Virus record (IMG/VR): IMGVR_UViG_3300046684_000128
Span: 1 to 46,460 of that record
Length of the DNA stretch: 46,460 bases
Strand: one strand, 5' to 3'
From: a virus
Made by a program: the position numbers and the translations under genes. This document shows, piece by piece, positions 10,621 through 29,210 of the stretch; position 1 is the first letter of the stretch; each line of letters begins with the position of its first letter. Under the pieces are notes generated by a model, which saw only the letters and a program-made list of their open reading frames with translations, searched no databases and was not told the origin of the DNA.

Positions 10621-11508
10621 TTACCGCGCCACTTTTCCGTGGTCCGGCACGCCGGAGCGGCCCCACAATAATACGTTATCCTCGCCACTTGTGCGCAAAG
10701 TCGCGCCCTGATTTGTGTTAATCGATACGGTGCTTGTGTAGGTGCCATCGGCTTTCAACCACGAGACGGCCGCGAACATACTTACCGTCGCAGCGCCCAT
10801 GTTGGTCCCGATTATCCAGAACTCCCCGAGAGTGCCCGCGGCGGGCCAGTTGGCGATTTGGAGGGACAAACTTTGGCCCGCATAAGGCGCAAGGTTCCAC
10901 ACCAGGCAGTTGCCAGCCTTGTAATCCACCGACACCACGCCCCCGGAAGGGGACGGCGCAGTCTGCACCTTCTTGTCCGCGTTCCCTGTGTCGCCCTTGT
11001 CGCCGGCCTTGTCCAAGTAAATCATGAGGTCGTCATCGGCCACGAACGGCGATGCGACGCTGCCGGCGCGGGGGGCGACAACAAGGTTCAAGTACCCTGT
11101 ACCGGATCCCGACAGGACGTCAAAAATCAGCCACTTGGACGGGTCGTTGCGCTTCTGGATTCGCAAGCTCGCCTTTACGTTGCTGGTGCCCGTCAGAAGG
11201 CTCGCCAGCACGGCGGATATGTCGACGCCGGACCCGGTGATAGGGTCGAGCCGCAGCACCGTAGCGGTGTTCTGCACGGCCGATCCGAGCCGCAGTTTGC
11301 CGGCACCGGGGTCCGCGTCGGCGGTGGCGATATCGAATTTGTAGGAAAACGTATTCGCCCCGCCCGCGGCCAGGGTGGAAAGCTGGGCCAGGAACGCGTC
11401 GAGCTGCGCCGGAAGCGCCGCCATCCACCGAATGAACGTATCGAGCATGCCCGAGAAAGTGGACCGCGCGCCACGTTGCGGGATTGGTGGTGGTGGAGTA
11501 AAGGCCAT
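10621..11508 (-). CDS. Tail fibre-like structural protein
   Basis: A 295-residue protein. The N terminus (MAFTPPPPIPQRGARSTFSG, then a helix with ALPAQLDAFLAQL) resembles an attachment segment. The middle (FSYKFDIATADADPGAGKLR and the following SLRIQKRNDPSKWLIFDV) is a beta domain common in phage fibre proteins. A short collagen-like GDKGDTG follows near residue 170, and the last ~110 residues form another beta domain. Likely a trimeric host-binding fibre on the tail tip. Its start shares one base with the end of the spike gene. Confidence 0.75.
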   Translation of the reverse strand: MAFTPPPPIPQRGARSTFSGMLDTFIRWMAALPAQLDAFLAQLSTLAAGGANTFSYKFDIATADADPGAGKLRLGSAVQNTATVLRLDPITGSGVDISAVLASLLTGTSNVKASLRIQKRNDPSKWLIFDVLSGSGTGYLNLVVAPRAGSVASPFVADDDLMIYLDKAGDKGDTGNADKKVQTAPSPSGGVVSVDYKAGNCLVWNLAPYAGQSLSLQIANWPAAGTLGEFWIIGTNMGAATVSMFAAVSWLKADGTYTSTVSINTNQGATLRTSGEDNVLLWGRSGVPDHGKVAR

Positions 11509-14240
11509 TATATTAATCCTCGTACGGTCGCGTTCAAAGTAACAAAGGGGTACTCGGCCGGCGACATGCTGGCGCTAAGCAAACCGAATACCGTCATCCA
11601 TTCGTAAAACTGGGCTTGGCTACCGACCACCACCACCGGGACGCCGAGGACGTCCTTGACGGAGTCCAGCACCGCGCCCGCGTCCTCTTTATCCATCTTT
11701 ACGGAGATTCGCATGCCCGTGGAATTTGGGCGCTTTTTAATCGTGGTATTGCCGAACCCGTCTGGTTTAATCAGGCTGAAATCTTGCGGTTCCACCGTGG
11801 CGTCGCGTTGCGGAATGCCAGATGGTCGCATGTCGCCGATTGCGTACATGCCCAGTTTAACGGGGCCGCCCGACTTATTCAACGTCAACTTGATTTGCGC
11901 AGTGCCATACGGGTCAATTCCGGTACGAACAATTTGCGTCAACGGTTTAAAGCGGTCGAAAAAGTATTCGTAATAGTCCGTTGGGTCGCTGCCCTCCAAC
12001 GGCGCGGTGGGCTCGTTATACACCACGGTGCCGCCCGGCGCATCGAGCACCTGGACCGCGAAGCTATCGGCGTCGATACCGAAAAGCGAAAAGCCGTTGA
12101 ACTGGCCGGGGGTGAGGGTAATAACAAGTGGGCTCGCCGCCACCGTTGGGGTGCTCACCAGGCCGTCAAACATCGCGTATTTATTCGTGGGGCCGGAGTC
12201 CAACCACCACGTACCCACGCCGGCCGCGTTGAATTGATTCGAAATGTCAGAGGGTAGCCGGGCGGTGTTCGCGTCTTTGAGGCTTTCATAAACCCGATGC
12301 GTGCTTGCCATGTAGACGCGCTGCCCGGTGCTATACGTCGCGCCCACGTTCCACAGAGGTGCGCTGTCCTCCGGCATTTCGACACCCCCCGCCGTGACGG
12401 ATTGGATCATCGTAACGCCGGGGCTGTCGCCGTAGGTTATGTCGATAGGTACAAGGATGCTTACCGCATCGCCGTATTCGTTAGCCAGCGCCTCGTTGCT
12501 GCCCCCGCCGACGTAGCCCAGCTCGGCGAAACTCTCGTACATGCCGACGCTCGGCGGGTTCTTGAAGGGCGCGCCGCTGTAGTCGTTATACGTGCCCAAG
12601 TAAAGGCCCGCACCAATAGCGCCCGAGGTCAGCCCAAGTTTATTATCCACGTCAAGCTGCGGGTCGTATTCGTAATCGTTCACCCCGGTGTACCCGAGCG
12701 CCGAGAACAGCGGCACCCCGTTGGCGTCCACATCGCTGTTGGAGTATTTCACCATGCCCGGCGACGAGGAGTAGAAAACGTTGTTGCTCGCGCGGGTGAA
12801 CCCGGCCGGCAGCGAAATAGGGTGCTGGACGTTCAGGAAAATATTATTCGCTTTATCCAGAATGTTGGCGTTGTTGCCCGCTTCCGAGATACCGCATTTC
12901 GCGTTCTTGAAAATGTTGTTTGCGCAGATAGACGGGTTGCCGATGTGCGCAGCAAAAGCGCATTCTGCGATAAAAGCCGTTTGCAGGGTGCCGCTTGCCC
13001 GGCGGTTCTTGATCGCTGCGGTGCAGTTGTTTTCAAAGTAGTTACCGACGATCTTATGCGCGCCGGTCATGGTGCCGGTTCCGCCGTACTGCTGCAGGCC
13101 GTTGCCCTCGTTGAACGCTATGTAGTTGCCCCACACGTAGCATGTGTCGGTGCCATCGTCCAAGCCGATGCCGCAGCCCTCGCTGCCGTTGTCGGACGGG
13201 CCGCCCCAGTTCTTGGCATAAGTCGCGGTGTTATTATAAATCTCGTGTCCGCCGTTCTGGCCCTGGCCGCCGGACGACGAAATCTCAATGCCCCGACCGT
13301 AATACGACGAGGTGGCCAGGTTCGACCCTGCATAGCTGACGTTGTTACGGCCGATCTTGCAATCTCGCGTGCCGCCGGGGAAGTGGATACCGAACATGTA
13401 GCAATATTGGACGTTGTTATCCAGCACCTCCACCCCGGTGATGATGCCCCCGCCGCCGTTCACGAAGATGCCGACGAACGCGCCAGGGAACGTGTTGCGG
13501 TAAATTTTGGCGTTCGGGCACCGGCCGGCGCGAATACCCATCGCGGTGGGATTTACCTGTTTCTCGACGCCGCCAGCAGGCCGCCCGAGGTTATCAAGCA
13601 TTACTAGGTTGGTGAGGGTGTAGGACGCGCTGGTGGTCTCGCACCGCGCCATGTGCGAGTTGGTGCCCCCGCCGCCCTTGTGGTTAAACACGTTGCCGAG
13701 CACCTGGACGTTGTCGATATTGGCGCTGTCCGCGCTGATGGTCAGCAGGTTGTTATTGTTCGCGTTCGTATGCGAAACGCCGTTCAGCTCGCAATCGCGC
13801 ACCATGAGGTTGCTACGGTTGTACGCCTGGATGCAGCCCACATTCGTATCGATCCGGACCCGCGCCACGGTGGAGTCGCTGCCGAGATAGAGCATGGACG
13901 TATCGTTGGCCACCGTCAGGGTGCCGCGAATGTCCAGGTCGAAGACATCGACGTAATCCTTGTTCGTGCTGCTGTACGTCGCCGCGGGCGTCGTGCGGTT
14001 GATGATCGGCTTCGGCAAGGCGCTGTTGTCCGAGCCGTCCGCATTGGCGTAGGCTTCAAACACGATGTGGGCCGAGGCGGTGCCGGGCACGGTAGCCCAC
14101 TCATTGCCGGTGTAGGTGCTGCCGCGCAGGAAGCGCACGCGGTCGCCCGCGGCAAGGGTTGGGATTGTCTTCTTCGGGGACGCGGGGGTGCCCGCCCCCG
14201 TGTTGTCCGCCGCGCCGCCGTTGATGTAATAAATCGTCAT
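11508..14240 (-). CDS. Tail spike: beta-helix fused to tail domain
   Basis: A 910-residue protein directly after the tape measure gene. Residues ~1-560 form a right-handed parallel beta-helix: MTIYYINGGAADNTGAGTPA at the start, then many N-rich turns (NNNLLTI, YNNTATY, ENNCTAAIKN). This architecture is used by pectate-lyase-like depolymerases. Residues ~630-910 (ALWNVGATYSTGQRVYMAS, SGPTNKYAMFDG, PTDYYEYFFDRF, TTIKKRPNST) match a tail-end domain found alone or as the main body in other phage tail proteins. The C-terminal part is probably the virion anchor and the helix the receptor- or polysaccharide-active part, an order reversed from most spikes. No catalytic residues can be assigned by eye. 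Confidence 0.75.
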   Translation of the reverse strand: MTIYYINGGAADNTGAGTPASPKKTIPTLAAGDRVRFLRGSTYTGNEWATVPGTASAHIVFEAYANADGSDNSALPKPIINRTTPAATYSSTNKDYVDVFDLDIRGTLTVANDTSMLYLGSDSTVARVRIDTNVGCIQAYNRSNLMVRDCELNGVSHTNANNNNLLTISADSANIDNVQVLGNVFNHKGGGGTNSHMARCETTSASYTLTNLVMLDNLGRPAGGVEKQVNPTAMGIRAGRCPNAKIYRNTFPGAFVGIFVNGGGGIITGVEVLDNNVQYCYMFGIHFPGGTRDCKIGRNNVSYAGSNLATSSYYGRGIEISSSGGQGQNGGHEIYNNTATYAKNWGGPSDNGSEGCGIGLDDGTDTCYVWGNYIAFNEGNGLQQYGGTGTMTGAHKIVGNYFENNCTAAIKNRRASGTLQTAFIAECAFAAHIGNPSICANNIFKNAKCGISEAGNNANILDKANNIFLNVQHPISLPAGFTRASNNVFYSSSPGMVKYSNSDVDANGVPLFSALGYTGVNDYEYDPQLDVDNKLGLTSGAIGAGLYLGTYNDYSGAPFKNPPSVGMYESFAELGYVGGGSNEALANEYGDAVSILVPIDITYGDSPGVTMIQSVTAGGVEMPEDSAPLWNVGATYSTGQRVYMASTHRVYESLKDANTARLPSDISNQFNAAGVGTWWLDSGPTNKYAMFDGLVSTPTVAASPLVITLTPGQFNGFSLFGIDADSFAVQVLDAPGGTVVYNEPTAPLEGSDPTDYYEYFFDRFKPLTQIVRTGIDPYGTAQIKLTLNKSGGPVKLGMYAIGDMRPSGIPQRDATVEPQDFSLIKPDGFGNTTIKKRPNSTGMRISVKMDKEDAGAVLDSVKDVLGVPVVVVGSQAQFYEWMTVFGLLSASMSPAEYPFVTLNATVRGLI

Positions 14241-21026: not shown

Positions 21027-21364
21027 GACGAGAAAGCCTTTATGGTAAATTCCAGCCATTCGCGGCGGCCAATCTCGGCCGGCGTGCTGGTGATTTCGTA
21101 CACTTGATCCGTGCCTTCATGCAATATTACTCTCATGTCCGCCGTGACGCCCGCCATGTAGCGAATCCGGACGCGCGCAGGGTAGCCCGCCACGCGCAAA
21201 CCCTGTTTTGTGTCTTCGCTGCTGGCGGGTAACAAGTCCCATTTCTGCGCGGGGATCCGCTCCACGACGTTGACCCACCCGCCAGGCTGCGGCCCGTACT
21301 CCGGATCATCGACGATGCCTTGCTGCTGCAGGGTGAGCCGGCGGTCGAGCTGCCCGGCCCTCAT
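21023..21364 (-). CDS. Head closure protein (SPP1 gp16-like adaptor)
   Basis: A 113-residue protein from ATG 21364, overlapping the connector stop. MRAGQLDRRLTLQQQGIVDD, WVNVVERIPAQKWDLLP, and YMAGVTADMRVILHEGTDQV with YEITSTPAEIGRREWLEF are the pattern of the phage head-tail joining family. It forms the ring that closes the connector and docks the tail. Confidence 0.88.
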   Translation of the reverse strand: MRAGQLDRRLTLQQQGIVDDPEYGPQPGGWVNVVERIPAQKWDLLPASSEDTKQGLRVAGYPARVRIRYMAGVTADMRVILHEGTDQVYEITSTPAEIGRREWLEFTIKAFSS

Positions 21365-22026
21365 TCGTACACCTGATACGGCTGGAGCAACCATTTGACG
21401 AAGTTATCGGGCAGCATTTCGACCGTTGCGCCGATCACTTCCGATTCGCGGTTCTCGTACATCGTGCCGATGGCCAGCAGCATCCATTGCACGATGGGCG
21501 CGGGCACCTGGCCGACCGGATAACCCGCGGTGTAGTAGACCCGCACCGCGTCGCGCCGACCGTGCACAAGCGTGGGATACACTCCGGCGTGCAACTCGAC
21601 GCGCGGCATTTCATCCTCGCTCACTGGGGGTACATAGAACGCTGCCGGGTCCAGGATTACCTCGCTGCCGGTGTCGTCCACGTAGCCGATGTTGTCCACC
21701 GAGATGATAGGCGGCTTCAGCAAAGACATGCTCGCGCCCCAGTGGCCGAACGTCGCCACCCGGCGGCGCTGCGCCAGGGTGCGATTCAACCGGCCCTCTG
21801 CCATCTGGCGCGCGGTGGTAATCAGGCCGGAAATGTACTCGTCGTCGTCCGGCACGACCACGCGCAAGTGCGCTTTCGCTTGTTCCAGCGTGATGGGCTC
21901 GGCCACCTCCAAGTCGGGGGCGACTGTCGCCGCTACCGCCACAGAAAAGGTTTGCGCCGCGGCATCAGCGCTTTCGCCTATCTGGTCATCTTCGCAATGG
22001 TTTACCGTTACGGTGGTTACTTGCAT
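21361..22026 (-). CDS. Head-tail connector (phiE125 gp8 / gp6-like)
   Basis: A 221-residue adaptor. EPITLEQAKAHLRVVVPDDD followed by YISGLITTARQMAEGRLNRT is the classic connector opening. FGHWGASMSLLKPPIISVDN, VYYTAGYPVGQVPAPIVQWM and the C-terminal MLPDNFVKWLLQPYQ complete the phiE125 gp8-like pattern. The first ~40 residues (TVNHCEDDQIGESADAAAQT) are an extension. The ring binds under the portal. It is preceded by the large beta-helix gene with no spacing. Confidence 0.9.
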   Translation of the reverse strand: MQVTTVTVNHCEDDQIGESADAAAQTFSVAVAATVAPDLEVAEPITLEQAKAHLRVVVPDDDEYISGLITTARQMAEGRLNRTLAQRRRVATFGHWGASMSLLKPPIISVDNIGYVDDTGSEVILDPAAFYVPPVSEDEMPRVELHAGVYPTLVHGRRDAVRVYYTAGYPVGQVPAPIVQWMLLAIGTMYENRESEVIGATVEMLPDNFVKWLLQPYQVYE

Positions 22027-24873
22027 TTACTGGTCCTCGGTGGTCAGGTACACCGTACGATCTTCGGTACGCGCCGGGTTGCTGCTGGTCGTGATACGGC
22101 AAGTAATCCTTATGTTGTTTCCCGTTGGGGCGGTAACGAACACGGTTGCGATACCGCCGAGCGAGTACCCTCCCTTGCTGGTCAACCCGACCAGGTCGAA
22201 GTCCACCTGCTTGATGGTGTCCGAGATATCGGCTAGCACTTCGGTCCAGTCAAACGAAATATCGATGGTGGAATCCGGGTCGATAGTCCCTAGCGGCTTT
22301 TTCGGGTTCTTCAAGTCCCAATACGCACTCCCCGCAAAAGTAAGGGGTGCGGCCTTGATCTGGATAGTACGGGTTTTCGACCGGGTAAATCCCGGATCCG
22401 GAGCGGCCGCCGGCACCGTAACCACGGCGGTGCCCGCGCGGGAAGTGTCCTGCTGGCTGGTCGCAGTGATCGTGATCGTTTGCGGGACGGATGCCGTGGC
22501 CGGTGCCGTGAACAGTCCGGCCGAAGTAAGCGCGCCCAAGGCCGGCGAGAACGTCCACGTAACCGCTTGGGACGGCCCGTTAGTGCCCGCCACAACCGCG
22601 TTGAACTGCTGCACCGCGCCGCCGGCAAGGGTGACGGTTGCCGGCGACACGGTAACGCCGGAGACCGTCACCACGGGGGGTGCCACGTTGTTGGTGATCG
22701 AGCGGCCCGTAAAGGTAGCCGTTTGGTTGCCGGCCGCGTCGCGCACGCCGTTGGTTGCCGGCTTGGTGTACGCCGCCGTGCGCGCGGCCTCGCTGTTTGC
22801 AAACGCGGGCGTAACCGTCAGAGTGATGGTGCTACCAGATACCGCTACGCCGGTAACAGTGTGTCCGGCTACTGTGAAAGCCGAAGCTGCGGGCACGAAC
22901 GCGGGGTCGAATGCCTCGGACGCGGTAAGCACCACCGCCGTGGGTGCCGCGTTCTCGACCGCCGCCGACACAATCGTCGGCGCGGTAGTGTCGGCGGCGG
23001 TCGTCACCGAATGGCCGATTGCAAGCGATTTGTTGCCCGCCGCATCGACAGCCTGCACCTTCACGGAATAGCTTGTTTGCGGGGTAAGCCCGGTCACGTC
23101 GACGGCGTTCACCGGTCCCGCGTTGGTGTACGTGGTGCCGTTCGTACTCCACGCGTAGTTCGTTACCCCGATGTTATCCGACGCGTTCGGCCAGGTAATC
23201 GTAAAGCCGGTCGGTGCGAGGTTCGTGATGGTGACGTCAGCGCCCGTTACCCACGTCGGCGCGGTCGGATCCGGGTCGGGCTCCGGTGCCTCCGGATTGC
23301 CCCCGATAGAAATTACTTGCACGCCGGCTCCGACGCCGCCAAGAGGGAAACTGGTGCCCGCGGCGGTCGTCAGTTGGACGATGGGCGCGTCATAGTTGCC
23401 CGGCGGGATACTCGCGCTGATATTGAATGCGCCAGCGGTCAAAGTTAAAGGCAGCGGCCCCTGCGTAATAGCACCGTTCGGGTTCGCCGCGGCAGCCGGC
23501 AGCGTCATCGCCCCCGACGTCGGCGCGCCGCTAGTTGTGCCGGACACCGTCAGGGTCGACCCCGCGATACTCTGCGTGGTGATGGACCCGGTAGCGCCCA
23601 CCACGTCGGCGTTGCCTTGATTATTCACCGCCGAGCTTGTGCCGCCGGAGTTCGTCAACGTAACGGTAGGCAAATACCGGCCCACTTTCACATTGGTGAA
23701 TACCACCGAGAAAGTGCCGGAACCCAGCGTGACATCGACCGGTCCTTGCGCGACACCGCCGTTATATGCCGTTGCCGTCGGGGTCAGCGACGCTTTGCCG
23801 GACGCAGGACTATTCGTCGTGGTGCCGCTGACCGTTACCGTTTGCCCACTGACCGTTACACTAGTCACCGTTCCGGTCGGCATCGCCGCGGCCGGATTCA
23901 ACTGCACCGCGCCCGCGTCCGGCGTAGCGCCCCGGTTGCTAAGGCGTACGTCGAGCGCACTGAGCGCGGAAGCATTGGCCCCGCCGATAAGCAAACTGCC
24001 CGCCGCCGGGCGTACGTCAGTGTTGCTGTTGACCAGTGGGTTGCCAAACGTGACGCCGGTCTGCGATGTTGCCGTGTCCGTGTAGTTGCTGGCGACGTTG
24101 GCATATCCCCCCGTGCCGATGTTGATTGGCGTTGCTCCGAAGCCCACGAACGCGTTATTCCGGATCACCGGGGAGGCCGACGTACCATTGCGCACGGCGG
24201 CCCCCGTAGCTGCTCCAGTCCGCACAAAAGTGTTACGCGCAACAGGCCCGACGCTGTTAGATGTGCGGACGCAGCAGCCGGCCCCGGTCGACTGGAAAAA
24301 CAGGTTGTCGCTAACGAAGTGGGATCCGCCGGAAGAACTATTCCGCACCGCGCCGTTTGTGGCTCCAATGACGTTGCTTTTAATCCGGTTGCGCCACAGC
24401 CCGCCGACAGATACTGAGGGCGACGGTTGGCTATCATCCGTTTGCGGACCCACCCAAATGGCGTATTGCTCACTGTCCGCCACCGACCCGTCATCGACGA
24501 TGTTAATGCGAAAATCTTGCATGAACACGCCATTGCCGACCTGAATACGCCGGTTGCTCGGCTTCATGGTTAGCTCGATGCCCTGCGTGCCGTAGCCGAT
24601 GGGGCCGGTAGCACTATTCTCCAGTTCACGTGCGCTTAAGCCGTCCCCTGGACGCACCACGACGTAATGCGATGTGTCGTACGTCAGCGGGTTCATGGTG
24701 CAGTTAGCGATATCGCTATCCGCCTGATTCGCGAGCACCACAGCGTCAATCCATACGTCCTGCGCCACCAAGTCCTGTGCGCTTACCCAGTTGTCGAAGG
24801 CGTTGATTAGGGCAAAATCCTTTGCCACGCCGCCGACAGTCGGGCCGATGGTTTTTGTTACTTTCGTTACCAT
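22027..24873 (-). CDS. Virion fibre: beta-helix, Ig-like domains, adaptor end
   Basis: A 948-residue protein inside the head gene block. Residues ~1-330 look like a right-handed beta-helix (VVVRPGDGLS, NRRIQVGNGVFMQDFRIN, RNNAFVGFG turns, closing at GATPDAGAVQLNP). Repeated Ig-like strands follow, with a fibronectin III-like unit at ~541-640, a second Ig-like unit at ~640-730 and a Big_2-like unit at ~737-830 (VTVSPATVTLAGGAVQQFNA). The last ~110 residues (PLTFAGSAYWDLKNPKKPLG, FDWTEVLADISDTI, ITCRITTSSNPARTEDRTVY) resemble the short stand-alone fibre/adaptor proteins that other phages encode at this spot. It probably decorates the head or neck and binds host surface glycans. Confidence 0.7.
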   Translation of the reverse strand: MVTKVTKTIGPTVGGVAKDFALINAFDNWVSAQDLVAQDVWIDAVVLANQADSDIANCTMNPLTYDTSHYVVVRPGDGLSARELENSATGPIGYGTQGIELTMKPSNRRIQVGNGVFMQDFRINIVDDGSVADSEQYAIWVGPQTDDSQPSPSVSVGGLWRNRIKSNVIGATNGAVRNSSSGGSHFVSDNLFFQSTGAGCCVRTSNSVGPVARNTFVRTGAATGAAVRNGTSASPVIRNNAFVGFGATPINIGTGGYANVASNYTDTATSQTGVTFGNPLVNSNTDVRPAAGSLLIGGANASALSALDVRLSNRGATPDAGAVQLNPAAAMPTGTVTSVTVSGQTVTVSGTTTNSPASGKASLTPTATAYNGGVAQGPVDVTLGSGTFSVVFTNVKVGRYLPTVTLTNSGGTSSAVNNQGNADVVGATGSITTQSIAGSTLTVSGTTSGAPTSGAMTLPAAAANPNGAITQGPLPLTLTAGAFNISASIPPGNYDAPIVQLTTAAGTSFPLGGVGAGVQVISIGGNPEAPEPDPDPTAPTWVTGADVTITNLAPTGFTITWPNASDNIGVTNYAWSTNGTTYTNAGPVNAVDVTGLTPQTSYSVKVQAVDAAGNKSLAIGHSVTTAADTTAPTIVSAAVENAAPTAVVLTASEAFDPAFVPAASAFTVAGHTVTGVAVSGSTITLTVTPAFANSEAARTAAYTKPATNGVRDAAGNQTATFTGRSITNNVAPPVVTVSGVTVSPATVTLAGGAVQQFNAVVAGTNGPSQAVTWTFSPALGALTSAGLFTAPATASVPQTITITATSQQDTSRAGTAVVTVPAAAPDPGFTRSKTRTIQIKAAPLTFAGSAYWDLKNPKKPLGTIDPDSTIDISFDWTEVLADISDTIKQVDFDLVGLTSKGGYSLGGIATVFVTAPTGNNIRITCRITTSSNPARTEDRTVYLTTEDQ

Positions 24874-24876
24874 AGG

Positions 24877-27534
24877 TTATGCGCTCACGGTGGGGGTGAA
24901 GATGCCAGCACCTGGCCAGCGGAAACGCCAGTCGGCGGCCGATTTTTCTAGTGGGGTAGGCATCGACGCAACGCGTTGCTCGATAGCGTCATACCAGCCT
25001 TGATACTTGGCGCAAGCCGCAGCAATCTTGGTTGCATTCGGCACGTAGAAATCGAAATCTCGACGCATAAAAGCGTATTGCGCGCGGAAGTGCTGCGGGC
25101 TATCCCGCTCGATTTGGTCGTTGTACACGCCACCGTAAGGATTGCCGTTCGGACGCCGCACCCAGTCCTCAACGCCTGTTTTTGGCTGAACGTTGGCCGC
25201 CCAGTCCGCCCAGCTCGCGGCTACCGGAGGTAGCGGGGCGCCAACCGGTACAGCGACGGTCCCGTTCATGTAGTACTCGTATCGGCCGTCGGTGTCGATA
25301 GCCCAGTCCAGGCTATATCGGTCGTAGCACTGAATCCAGAACGTCATTGCGTCCCGGTTGGCCTGCGACTTATTCCACAGCATATCCCACACGCCTGTCG
25401 TTTTCATCGTGAGGAACACCGCGGCCATGTAGAACGACATGGAGGAGCACCCGCTTTGCGAACGTGCTGCGTGATAGCCGCCTGGCTGGTCTTCGGTGGT
25501 GTCGATCAACGGCGTGCCTAAGTTGCGGATACCGTCGAAATAGATTCCCGGCGTGCCGTTCTGCGCGGGGGCCATCACGGTTTTGCGCATGGAATCGAGG
25601 TTGTACTGCATGCGGTCTTCGACCAGTGCCCGTGAGATTCCAAGGGTCGGGTGTTCGGACGCCAGTTTCCACGCCATTGTCATGGTGCCCCAGTGCCAGG
25701 CATCCTGCCGTGCCATGAAACGGGAAGTGTAATCCGGGTTTGCGACACGGCCGCCACCGAACCACGCCAGGCAATTTGATATGTAGTAGTGCTTATGGGA
25801 CACCAGGTGGGCCGGGCTGTTCAGGAACAGCGCGCCGTGGCCGGCTTGCTCGTGCGCGTGCATGTAGTCGACCGCGTCGCCGTTCCACGGCCGACGGCCG
25901 AATTTGTCGCGCGCGCCGCCGCCTGTAAGCCGCGTCGTGAACAGGGGGATCCGGTTATCGGGATTGGCCACGGTGCCGTCGCCGTAATACGAACCCGTAT
26001 GCATCCACTCGTTGCGGTTGGCTTCTGCAACCGGAATCGACGCGAACGATTTGACATCGCGGAAGAAGTGGCGCGACTGGTTGAAATATGCCTTGGTGTA
26101 CGCCCACATGCCGCTCTTGTAGGGGACATTACCTTTCAACCGCACGCCGTTCGGTTGGGTCATGTACAGCGAAAGCCAAGCCGGGTAGTAACACCGGTTG
26201 GGACGCGGTCCGCCAGGACCAGTGTATCGGTCTTGACCGCTAATTGATCCCACTTCGTAGTCCCACCCCGAAACGCGCCATGCGCGATGGATGGAGCTGC
26301 CGATTTGGGCGTCACTATCAAACAGGTACGGGTCAACCGCGTTAGGGTAATCGATGCTGTTGTAGGGGGCGTTCGCCATCGGCCATTGCGGTAGCGCGTT
26401 CATGTGCAGCGTGCCGTCTATCTGCTTGTCGTCGTCGCTCATCGGAACCCACGCCCCCGAGCCCCACGAGATTTTACAGGTGGAAGGGCGCAGAATGTCG
26501 GTCTTGAAGCCGTTAAAAAACTTGCGCGCCTTGGCGTTCATCTTCGGCTCGTGCGACTGCCAAAACAGCATATTCGCGCACGTAAAGGACGGGCGCAGCG
26601 CCACCGTGGTGCTGCGCGGCACGCCGGTGCTTGGGTCGTTGATCGGGAGGCCGTCGTGGAGTTCAAAGGTGTATAGCACCCTGTCGCTCGCGTCGAGAAT
26701 CTGGCCTTTGAACGGCGGCGGGATCGTCACATCGCTGGTTGCATCGTACCCCGTCACAGAGGGGTATTTCGCGGCCCACGCCGTCCCGTAGGGGCGACAA
26801 TTCACAAGCACCTGATGCAGTGGCACCGCGGCTTCGGCGTTACAATCCGCATTCATGCTCAGCAACAGAATGCCAAACTCAAAAGCGTCGAAGATAATTG
26901 TCTGGCTGGATTTGGTAACGCGCACGTCCCCCATCGACTCGGCCACCTCGGGATCGGTCATCACGAGATTGACGTCGCGCGTGTCAAACGGGATTGTGCC
27001 CACCGTCACGGGGGCGGCGGGGTTGGTGTAGTTGATGATACGGAACTTGGCGGGCGCGTTCGCGTCTAGCAAAGGGGGAATCGGCCCCACTCCGGTGGCC
27101 AGCAGAGGCGGTGACTTAACGCCAGTACCCGCGGAGAACGAAAAGCCCACGCTCGCCGCGCCGGTTGGGTTAGCGCCCAAGATGAAGTCTTTCCCGCTGC
27201 CGGGTAGCCCGAGCGTGCCTTGAACCCAATGCCCGCCGCCTTCGATGCGCAGGACACACGCGCCGGTCCCTAAATCAGCGGCAAGATTCACCGAGGCCGC
27301 GCCAATTATGCCGAAATCGGTAATGTCCCCGCTGTAAAGCGTAAGGGTGCCGGTATTGGCCAGGTTCAAAAATTCGGTGCCAGTGGTCGCCGGACTCGTG
27401 GCCGCTGCGTTCGAATCACGAAAGCAGCGCACCCGACGGGCGGTTCCGAGAGCAGTTCGCACCTTGGCGGCCCAATCCACTTTAGTGGGTGAGCCGGTGA
27501 GAATAGCCGCCAAAGATGGGCTAACTGTCAGCAT
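24877..27534 (-). CDS. Large virion-associated protein, unknown (885 aa)
   Basis: An 885-residue protein between the capsid and connector genes. The N-terminal ~140 residues (RRVRCFRDSNAAATSPATTG, NTGTLTLYSGDITDFGI) form a beta domain of the kind found in small phage structural proteins here, perhaps the virion anchor. The rest is rich in W, Y, H and helical segments with repeated blocks such as GDAVDYMHAHEQAGHGALFL, DAWHWGTMTMAWKLASEHP and SQSGCSSMSFYMAAVFL, suggesting an alpha/alpha-toroid enzyme such as a polysaccharide lyase or glycosidase. I cannot assign a family or catalytic residues. The size and the place are unusual for a head gene. Confidence 0.65.
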   Translation of the reverse strand: MLTVSPSLAAILTGSPTKVDWAAKVRTALGTARRVRCFRDSNAAATSPATTGTEFLNLANTGTLTLYSGDITDFGIIGAASVNLAADLGTGACVLRIEGGGHWVQGTLGLPGSGKDFILGANPTGAASVGFSFSAGTGVKSPPLLATGVGPIPPLLDANAPAKFRIINYTNPAAPVTVGTIPFDTRDVNLVMTDPEVAESMGDVRVTKSSQTIIFDAFEFGILLLSMNADCNAEAAVPLHQVLVNCRPYGTAWAAKYPSVTGYDATSDVTIPPPFKGQILDASDRVLYTFELHDGLPINDPSTGVPRSTTVALRPSFTCANMLFWQSHEPKMNAKARKFFNGFKTDILRPSTCKISWGSGAWVPMSDDDKQIDGTLHMNALPQWPMANAPYNSIDYPNAVDPYLFDSDAQIGSSIHRAWRVSGWDYEVGSISGQDRYTGPGGPRPNRCYYPAWLSLYMTQPNGVRLKGNVPYKSGMWAYTKAYFNQSRHFFRDVKSFASIPVAEANRNEWMHTGSYYGDGTVANPDNRIPLFTTRLTGGGARDKFGRRPWNGDAVDYMHAHEQAGHGALFLNSPAHLVSHKHYYISNCLAWFGGGRVANPDYTSRFMARQDAWHWGTMTMAWKLASEHPTLGISRALVEDRMQYNLDSMRKTVMAPAQNGTPGIYFDGIRNLGTPLIDTTEDQPGGYHAARSQSGCSSMSFYMAAVFLTMKTTGVWDMLWNKSQANRDAMTFWIQCYDRYSLDWAIDTDGRYEYYMNGTVAVPVGAPLPPVAASWADWAANVQPKTGVEDWVRRPNGNPYGGVYNDQIERDSPQHFRAQYAFMRRDFDFYVPNATKIAAACAKYQGWYDAIEQRVASMPTPLEKSAADWRFRWPGAGIFTPTVSA

Positions 27535-27553: not shown

Positions 27554-27862
27554 TTACTTCTTCGCGGCGGTTTTGTTGCGGGCTGGCTGTTCCATCTTGT
27601 TTTCCATCGGCTGTGCGGCCTTGCCGTCGCCCAGCACGTCGTCGGCGTCGTCCACCACGACGTCGCCCGCGTGCTTGGCCTGCGGCTGCGCGTCAGCCTG
27701 GGTCTGTTCCGGGTCGCCCTTCGCGTCCAGGCTCACGAAGCCTGCTTTCTCCAGCTCCTTGGCGTCCGCCGGGTTCATTGCGTACACGCCGTCCTTTTTC
27801 GCGTCCACGTTGCCGTGGGAGAACGCTTGGAGGGCCGTGACGAGGGTCTTTTGCTTTGCCAT
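27554..27862 (-). CDS. Small capsid-associated protein
   Basis: A 102-residue protein. The first half (MAKQKTLVTALQAFSHGNVD, then NPADAKELEKAGFVSL) matches short phage proteins encoded right after the major capsid gene, often with an FSHG and EKAGLV pattern. The second half is a disordered Q/D/K-rich tail ending ARNKTAAKK. A head accessory or DNA-interacting role is possible. Function unproven. Confidence 0.65.
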   Translation of the reverse strand: MAKQKTLVTALQAFSHGNVDAKKDGVYAMNPADAKELEKAGFVSLDAKGDPEQTQADAQPQAKHAGDVVVDDADDVLGDGKAAQPMENKMEQPARNKTAAKK

Positions 27863-27917: not shown

Positions 27918-29210
27918 TTACGCGATGGTCAACGAACCTTTAACGAACGCTTCCGGACGGTACACCGCCAGGCCGAGACGTTCTTCAATCAGAACAGTTA
28001 CCAAATTGTTAACAAAGTCGTCTTCGTTCTCGGTGGCAATAACCACCGCTGCGTCTTCGCGGTCGAAGACCTGCGCGCCGAGCTGGAACGCGCCGGCCAG
28101 GAACTGGCCGACGGCCATAGCCTGGGTGCTCACCACCGGGCGATTCCACAGCGTCGGCGACATGGTGCCCTGCGGGTTGCCGATCAGATAGCGGCCATTG
28201 TCGTCCTTGAGCAGTTCGATGTTGCACCAGTCAGTCGGGTTCAGCACCACGCCGTCCGAAGGGAACTCGGCCAGCTCGGCTTGCAGCAGCGCCAGGCGCA
28301 GCAGATCGATTGCCGTGGTCGGCGCCGTCGCGCCCGTCGGCAGCGCGTAGGCGGTCGCCTGGGTGTAGATGCCGTTCAGGTTGTTGCCGACGCCCGAGCC
28401 GTTCAGCATTTGGGCTTCTTCGCGGAAGCGCAGCATGTAGCGCAGGCGGTAGTCGATGAACGACTGCAGGCCGGGCAGGTCGGCCAGGATCTCGGTCGAT
28501 GCCTTCATGAACGTTGCGATTTTCTTGACGGTCTCGGTAACGGTGGTCATCGAGATGGACGATTCCGGCTTGCGCGCGCCCTCGGCGACCGGCGCGGCGT
28601 TGTTCACGTAGCCGGTTTCCTTCGGATAGATGATGATCGGCTTATCGGTGCGGCCGGGGGCGATCAGGTCGCGCAGGAAGAAACGACGATCCGGAATGCG
28701 CAGCATGCCCGGCAGACGGTTGGGCTCGATAGCCGCGCCGACGTTGCCCGCGCCCGCACCTACCGCGCTGTTGACGTACTTGACGTCCAGTTGGATCGAT
28801 TGGCCCTTACGCAGCTTTTGCGAGCCGTCCGAGTAGCCCTTGAGGGCTTCGTTCTCGATGGCTTGCATGCCAATGGACTTGGTGCCGACGTCCTTGCCGG
28901 CGTCTTCGGCGCGGGCTTGCTTCTGCTGCACTTCCTTGAGCGCGTTCTGCAGCTCGCCTTGTTTCAACAGCAGCTCGTCGACGCGCTCTTTCTGGCCTTC
29001 GGCCATGGCGATGCCCTTCTTAGCTTCGGCGATAGCTTTTTCGCCTTCCGCTTTAACTTCGGCGCTGATACGGTCGAGCGCCTTTACGACTTCGTCCGGC
29101 GGGCTATCGAACATCGCCAGTTTGGTATAGAACATGCGGCCCAGCGGACGCGCGGCGATAGCCAGCATTTCCAGCAGGAAGTATTTAATCCGGATTTTAA
29201 GGAGTTTCAT
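27918..29210 (-). CDS. Major capsid protein, HK97 fold
   Basis: A 430-residue HK97-type capsid protein. The first ~120 residues (DEVVKALDRISAEVKAEGEK and the following long heptads) are a coiled-coil delta domain that acts as internal scaffold and is removed by the protease. The mature part carries IPDRRFFLRDLIAPG, AAPVAEGARKPESS, FMKASTEILADLPGLQSFID and GVVLNPTDWCNIELLKDDNG, all hallmarks of the family, with AYRPEAFVKGSLTIA-like C terminus (VYRPEAFVKGSLTIA). No separate scaffold gene is visible, in agreement with the delta domain. Confidence 0.95.
   Translation of the reverse strand: MKLLKIRIKYFLLEMLAIAARPLGRMFYTKLAMFDSPPDEVVKALDRISAEVKAEGEKAIAEAKKGIAMAEGQKERVDELLLKQGELQNALKEVQQKQARAEDAGKDVGTKSIGMQAIENEALKGYSDGSQKLRKGQSIQLDVKYVNSAVGAGAGNVGAAIEPNRLPGMLRIPDRRFFLRDLIAPGRTDKPIIIYPKETGYVNNAAPVAEGARKPESSISMTTVTETVKKIATFMKASTEILADLPGLQSFIDYRLRYMLRFREEAQMLNGSGVGNNLNGIYTQATAYALPTGATAPTTAIDLLRLALLQAELAEFPSDGVVLNPTDWCNIELLKDDNGRYLIGNPQGTMSPTLWNRPVVSTQAMAVGQFLAGAFQLGAQVFDREDAAVVIATENEDDFVNNLVTVLIEERLGLAVYRPEAFVKGSLTIA

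Follow-up and report, generated by a model that had tools for sequence, protein, structure and literature searches.

A fibre-paired phage protein with a predicted toroid-like core, encoded between the capsid and adaptor genes of an HK97-like phage

The locus

The window analysed here is the whole 46,460-nucleotide stretch of virus record IMGVR_UViG_3300046684_000128. An 885-residue protein had been proposed at 24877-27534 in a preliminary description that named no strand; we find a real open reading frame on the minus strand, hereafter P0001, while the plus-strand frame over the same interval is interrupted by stops. The P0001 ATG is preceded by a ribosome-binding-like AGAGG at a spacing of 6 nt, and its stop is followed after a gap of 3 nt by the ATG of a 948-aa fibre gene. 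The features considered below, in window coordinates, are as follows.

21361-22026, minus strand: head-tail adaptor (phrog_442), the downstream edge of a variable slot
22027-24873, minus strand: 948-aa fibre, partner gene of P0001, with an N-terminal beta-helix-like domain, Ig/fn3 repeats, and a C-terminal Gp77 domain
22045-22281, minus strand: fibre residues 865-943, Gp77 (PF23148), a podophage GP4 fibre-tail-adaptor domain (E 1.7e-8)
23584-24873, minus strand: fibre residues 1-430, a beta-helix-like domain of ~400 aa
24877-27534, minus strand: P0001, 885 aa, with an N-terminal domain (N-domain), a beta domain, and a helical, toroid-like core
24925-26187, minus strand: P0001 residues 450-870, a series of long helices (toroid-like)
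26545-27090, minus strand: P0001 residues 149-330, beta domain common to all family members
27091-27534, minus strand: P0001 residues 1-148, the N-domain, a beta domain
27554-27862, minus strand: 102-aa core gene that follows the capsid gene and is retained whether or not cargo is present, the upstream edge of the variable slot
27918-29210, minus strand: HK97-type major capsid protein (PF05065, E 2.7e-49)

The placement first described, between a capsid accessory gene and the 948-residue fibre, is thus correct, with the 102-aa gene on one side and the fibre on the other. Terminase, portal, and protease genes lie farther upstream and were named by inspection and synteny with phiL7 rather than by search. 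The impression that P0001 is rich in W, H, and Y also holds, since these residues make up 9.4% of the protein, the highest content among eight large window proteins compared, the other seven ranging from 2.7-6.8%. No signal peptide was seen in P0001 by inspection. Elsewhere in the window, a 910-aa gene (11508-14240, minus strand) closes the tail module; its C-terminus matches phrog_6278 and its N-terminal part looks beta-helix-like by eye, so that an additional, separate spike at the tail end is probable.

A small family of phage proteins

P0001 matches no model or entry in Pfam, PHROGs, NCBIfam, or PDB, in agreement with the initial failure to recognise a family, and its single sequence, compared with phages, plasmids, IMG/VR, and GTDB contigs, likewise retrieved nothing. 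The orphan status that these empty searches suggested was overturned by homologues in genomes of Oxalobacteraceae, a group chosen as a search target because the window capsid has relatives in Massilia and Undibacterium. The 394 Oxalobacteraceae genomes searched contain homologues at 30-35% identity (E 1e-64 to 1e-100), a profile built from these recovered nine IMG/VR loci and later L094 and L095, and a fibre-seeded IMG/VR scan contributed two further members, L112 and L117. With L085 and L086 counted as one phage protein, and L092 and the prophage copy L078 likewise as one, the family numbers 17: P0001, 12 other phage members, and 4 chromosomal members.

The core of P0001 (residues 149-885) is found in every member, with about residues 150-875 aligning significantly in all 17 sequences at 27-34% identity to P0001 and E values down to 1e-133. 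Some alignments span the full length of the protein, for example residues 2-873 at 33% identity (E 1e-133), and because homologues match along its entire length P0001 is no chance reading frame. In the 13 members checked the core carries no Pfam or PHROGs domain, and PDB searches by family profile and by sequence were both empty. Sampled genomes of Burkholderiales (399) and Pseudomonadota (398) yielded no member, and the family looks rare. Judged by these alignments, P0001 belongs to a real, small, and undescribed protein family that is mostly encoded by phages. One further candidate, MT836302, was rejected: its match is weak (E 0.1), and among its listed ORFs none resembles the family.

A consistent pairing with a fibre

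What the preliminary description left out is the association of P0001 with the fibre encoded next to it. The gene directly downstream of the homologue in L085/L086, L087, L088, and L094 matches residues 1-430 of the window fibre, and in the loci compared before the reciprocal search both this fibre domain and the P0001 N-domain were confined to these pairs. A reciprocal IMG/VR search with the fibre domain alone returned, beyond the phages already known, L112 and L117, both of which carry an N-domain-bearing homologue directly upstream. In all, a gene for N-domain plus core is followed by one bearing the fibre beta-helix domain in 7/7 distinct phages, the window included, the two genes being separated by 3 to about 65 nt. 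The N-domain occurs only in these seven phages, and the homologues that lack it (L089-L093 and L095) also lack the fibre partner.

The consistent pairing and the reciprocal search together indicate that P0001 and the fibre form a two-gene cassette rather than P0001 being a lone head enzyme, and we regard the cassette as real. It is also encoded among virion genes, a setting that, like the fibre pairing, would suit a phage depolymerase or other virion-associated carbohydrate enzyme. The partner fibres carry Gp77, fn3, LamG, and DUF4832/DUF4874 domains. In the partner of L094 (L094:12708-18017), DUF4832 and DUF4874 (E 5e-55 and 7e-33) are fused upstream of the beta-helix domain, which implies that the fibre itself can bear an additional putative enzyme domain. 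The Gp77 domain of the window fibre is a likely point of attachment, to neck or tail.

A variable slot for surface-active cargo

The window cassette is bounded by the 102-aa capsid-accessory gene on one side and the head-tail adaptor on the other, and the corresponding slot is empty or short in the isolates phiL7 and vB_MseS-P1. Across related contigs the slot is short (263-736 bp) in nine and 1.9-7.2 kb long in 20 others, with cargo that includes GDSL/SGNH hydrolases and, by inspection, beta-helix proteins. In L003 it holds a PcRGLX_1st protein (L003:6276-8543) and a SASA esterase-like gene (L003:8557-11628). The capsid-to-adaptor interval of this phage lineage therefore has the appearance of a swap site for surface-active cargo.

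Several other features of the slot were observed. Cargo of L007, L008, L009, L010, L014, L018-L024, L026, L027, L033, L035, and L048 shares a start domain of ~45 aa, 'TIRLLSTYxGxxPxTIxTLdxAxxxaLlaGGnATxdLTGG', ahead of variable and often GDSL/SGNH domains; P0001 does not have it. This domain is possibly a virion anchor, and homology between the 102-aa gene and this N-terminal domain of GDSL cargo was tested and not found. A 900-aa cargo protein in L007 (L007:9489-12188) has no Pfam match and looks polysaccharide deacetylase-like by eye, and proteins that combine a PcRGLX-type RIFT domain with a helical C-terminal part constitute a second phage family in the slot (L003, with homologues L052-L064).

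Homologues of P0001 are not restricted to this position. In L112, which has a Mu-type portal and an S49 protease, the cassette lies between head-closure and tail-terminator genes, and in L088 it comes after the portal and capsid genes. L091 and L092 carry their homologue at the end of the tail module, as judged by neighbouring tape measure and tail proteins; the same placement of the remaining homologues without an N-domain was assigned from gene order only. The original designation of P0001 as a head protein therefore holds only in part: it fits the head-module position of the window gene, but not six relatives at or near the tail-module end or the bacterial members, in which the homologue is a lone protein with a Tat signal. 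The tail-module homologues L089, L091, L092/L078, and L093 share an extra C-terminal domain, 'W.xIGxExxxLTVxxDTxVxYG...FFGsDP', together with a Pro-rich stretch and a ~25-aa end, all of which P0001 lacks.

Chromosomal copies in bacteria

One Oxalobacteraceae genus carries a single chromosomal homologue in each of the four genomes included in the search (4/4; L072-L075 in G088, G129, G110, and G049), and G088 has an additional copy, L078, inside a prophage. A twin-arginine-like RRxFL signal opens all four proteins, L072, L073, L074, and L075, one of which matches TAT_signal at E 0.0064, and none has an N-domain or a fibre partner. By inspection, three of the four adjoin a conserved RND-efflux-like operon, the fourth lying in a different context, and the surroundings of the four copies contain no polysaccharide locus. 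In our tree the chromosomal copies nest among phage sequences with weak support (84/84), and from this nesting a phage origin of the bacterial copies is possible.

The Tat-like signals of the chromosomal homologues suggest that the fold can function when exported by bacteria, and some homologues are encoded by prophages. P0001 could on this view be no part of the virion but a phage protein, released or expressed from a prophage, that alters the surface of the host, for instance so as to shut out competing phages, and that lies in the head operon by accident. We consider this very improbable, given that P0001 is without a visible signal peptide and lies in a late head operon, and that its partner bears a fibre-tail-adaptor domain.

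Domain architecture and predicted fold

A structural beta domain had been suggested for the first ~140 residues. This boundary is borne out by homology, since matches begin at residue 2-10 in homologues with the N-domain and at about residue 151 in the others, and AlphaFold2 also places a separate beta domain there. With the single sequence the prediction reached a pLDDT of 30, and the model used was therefore one built on a 15-sequence alignment (pLDDT 68.4, pTM 0.76). It is arranged in the order N-domain, beta domain, and helical C-terminal half. Residues 1-110 are mostly confident and 150-250 very confident, and the helical blocks of the first reading appear as many long helices in the C-terminal half, running on to residue 867; the word toroid, as applied to P0001, is an interpretation of this predicted helix series. 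Residues 349-447, 509-540, and 552-560 have pLDDT < 50, and these loops include several invariant residues and the candidate active site.

Structure prediction with fold comparison had been put forward as a check on the idea of an enzyme, and here the proposal found no backing: against PDB, Foldseek of the model, low-confidence in places, gave nothing significant, the best match having an E value of 0.55 and TM scores not exceeding about 0.15. The top, insignificant ranks are cellobiose, chitobiose, and kojibiose phosphorylases and one polysaccharide lyase. Two BFVD phage proteins match the model at E 3e-4 and 7e-3, neither of them functionally named, and the N-domain has no convincing match among PHROGs and phage records. 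We propose that residues 1-148 are a docking domain.

Conserved residues and the question of activity

Forty-seven positions are invariant in 17/17 members, including N485, Y516, Y517, D556, H559, R609, and H628, these seven lying within the long-helix series. Toroid polysaccharide lyases typically use an Asn/His/Tyr/Arg set, and by analogy enzyme activity on carbohydrate may be inferred for P0001. Could the protein instead be purely structural, decorating the virion or forming part of a neck fibre without engaging glycans, its helices serving as a rod or platform for the fibre? Its head-module position, its obligate fibre partner, and the failure of Foldseek to find a significant enzyme fold would fit, but strictly conserved polar residues would be odd for a mere structural part, as would stand-alone Tat-signal bacterial homologues without N-domain or fibre, and we regard this explanation as improbable.

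Within the 15-sequence alignment P0001 itself departs from the family more than any other member. It differs there at 52/145 near-invariant positions (36%), compared with 1-18% in other members, and this loss makes a binding-only or substrate-shifted role a serious rival to catalysis. It shares H434Q/N435D with L112, its sister in the tree (support 100/98), and E363, R536, and R555 are altered in both. If the fold is derived from an enzyme, P0001 and L112 may no longer cleave, and P0001 may be a binding-only adhesin, in effect a lectin fixed to the head or neck through which the phage keeps its grip on polysaccharide of the host. Set against these substitutions is the retention in both proteins of N485, Y516, Y517, D556, H559, R609, and H628, and the loss of cleavage seems to us unlikely, if less so than a purely structural role.

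A model for the cassette

The reading towards which we lean, with modest confidence, is of a virion-attached, toroid-type, carbohydrate-active P0001 docked with its fibre in a swap slot. P0001 and the 948-aa fibre would constitute a laterally moving two-gene virion cassette, inserted between capsid and adaptor in an HK97-like phage whose host is probably one of the Oxalobacteraceae. P0001 is probably attached to the virion, with residues 1-148 docking it to the fibre or virion, the fibre beta-helix domain acting as its obligate partner, and Gp77 likely providing attachment to neck or tail. The beta domain and helical toroid-like core (149-885) would bind host-surface polysaccharide, the carbohydrate nature of the substrate being our inference, and in most family members the core probably cleaves it, in analogy with alpha/alpha-toroid lyases or toroid glycosidases.

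Of this, the analysis has shown that the reading frame is real, that it belongs to a family, where its N-domain ends, that it is paired with the fibre, that the slot varies, and what architecture is predicted. For the model speak the full-length homology in phages and Tat-signal bacterial proteins, the pairing in every N-domain phage together with the reciprocal search, the slot cargo of relatives and its absence from phiL7 and vB_MseS-P1, the position of the pair in L112, the domains of the partner fibres, the invariant residues, and the predicted beta domain with long helices. Against it stand the absence of a significant PDB fold, the low confidence of the loops with invariant residues, the many deviations of P0001 itself, and chromosomal copies outside any polysaccharide locus. 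A broader claim, which we put forward tentatively and judge to be somewhat short of an even chance, is that these proteins are a new family of polysaccharide-cleaving enzymes of toroid type, borne as an obligate enzyme-fibre pair in the head or neck operons of unrelated phages (a 271-kb contig included), re-used in the tail modules of others, and retained in a single bacterial genus, which exports its copy by the Tat route.

Comparison with known systems

The closest parallel in position is the PcRGLX-like protein of L003 (PF19501; exo-rhamnogalacturonan-lyase-like), which, like P0001, follows a 102-aa gene, is of similar size, combines by inspection a beta N-terminal part with a helical C-terminal part, and precedes a large partner gene, in L003 a SASA esterase-like one. 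Homology between the two was suspected by eye and rejected: their hhalign score of 22.7 falls inside that of shuffled controls (14.9-24.5), and P0001 matches neither a Pfam RIFT-barrel nor the L003 profile.

In the Alishewanella phage LSH1, gp34-36 form an optional structural module whose genes always occur together; one part is a lyase-like beta-helix, and another protein matches the GP4 fibril 8JOU_g (PMC13243795). These parts are analogous to the beta-helix and Gp77 domains of the window fibre, but no P0001-like helical protein is described in that module, which lies downstream of lysis genes rather than after the capsid.

The alpha/alpha-toroid enzymes of GH94 and GH65 and the toroid polysaccharide lyases resemble P0001 in having a beta domain followed by a helical half, and they lead its Foldseek ranks, although the similarity is insignificant (E >= 0.55) and their catalytic residues cannot be mapped onto it. 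Among phage depolymerase candidates, the DepoScope survey assigned 11 of 984 fold hits to alpha/alpha-toroids and did not study them further (PMC11326577); these are toroid-type candidate polysaccharide-active phage proteins to which P0001 can be likened by type alone. Where alpha/alpha-toroid depolymerases are reported to be rare and unstudied in phages (PMC11326577), the P0001 family would add a whole undescribed family, one that moves among head, neck, and tail operons, whose N-domain form is always coupled to one kind of fibre, and whose lone exported bacterial counterpart could be purified and assayed free of virion parts.
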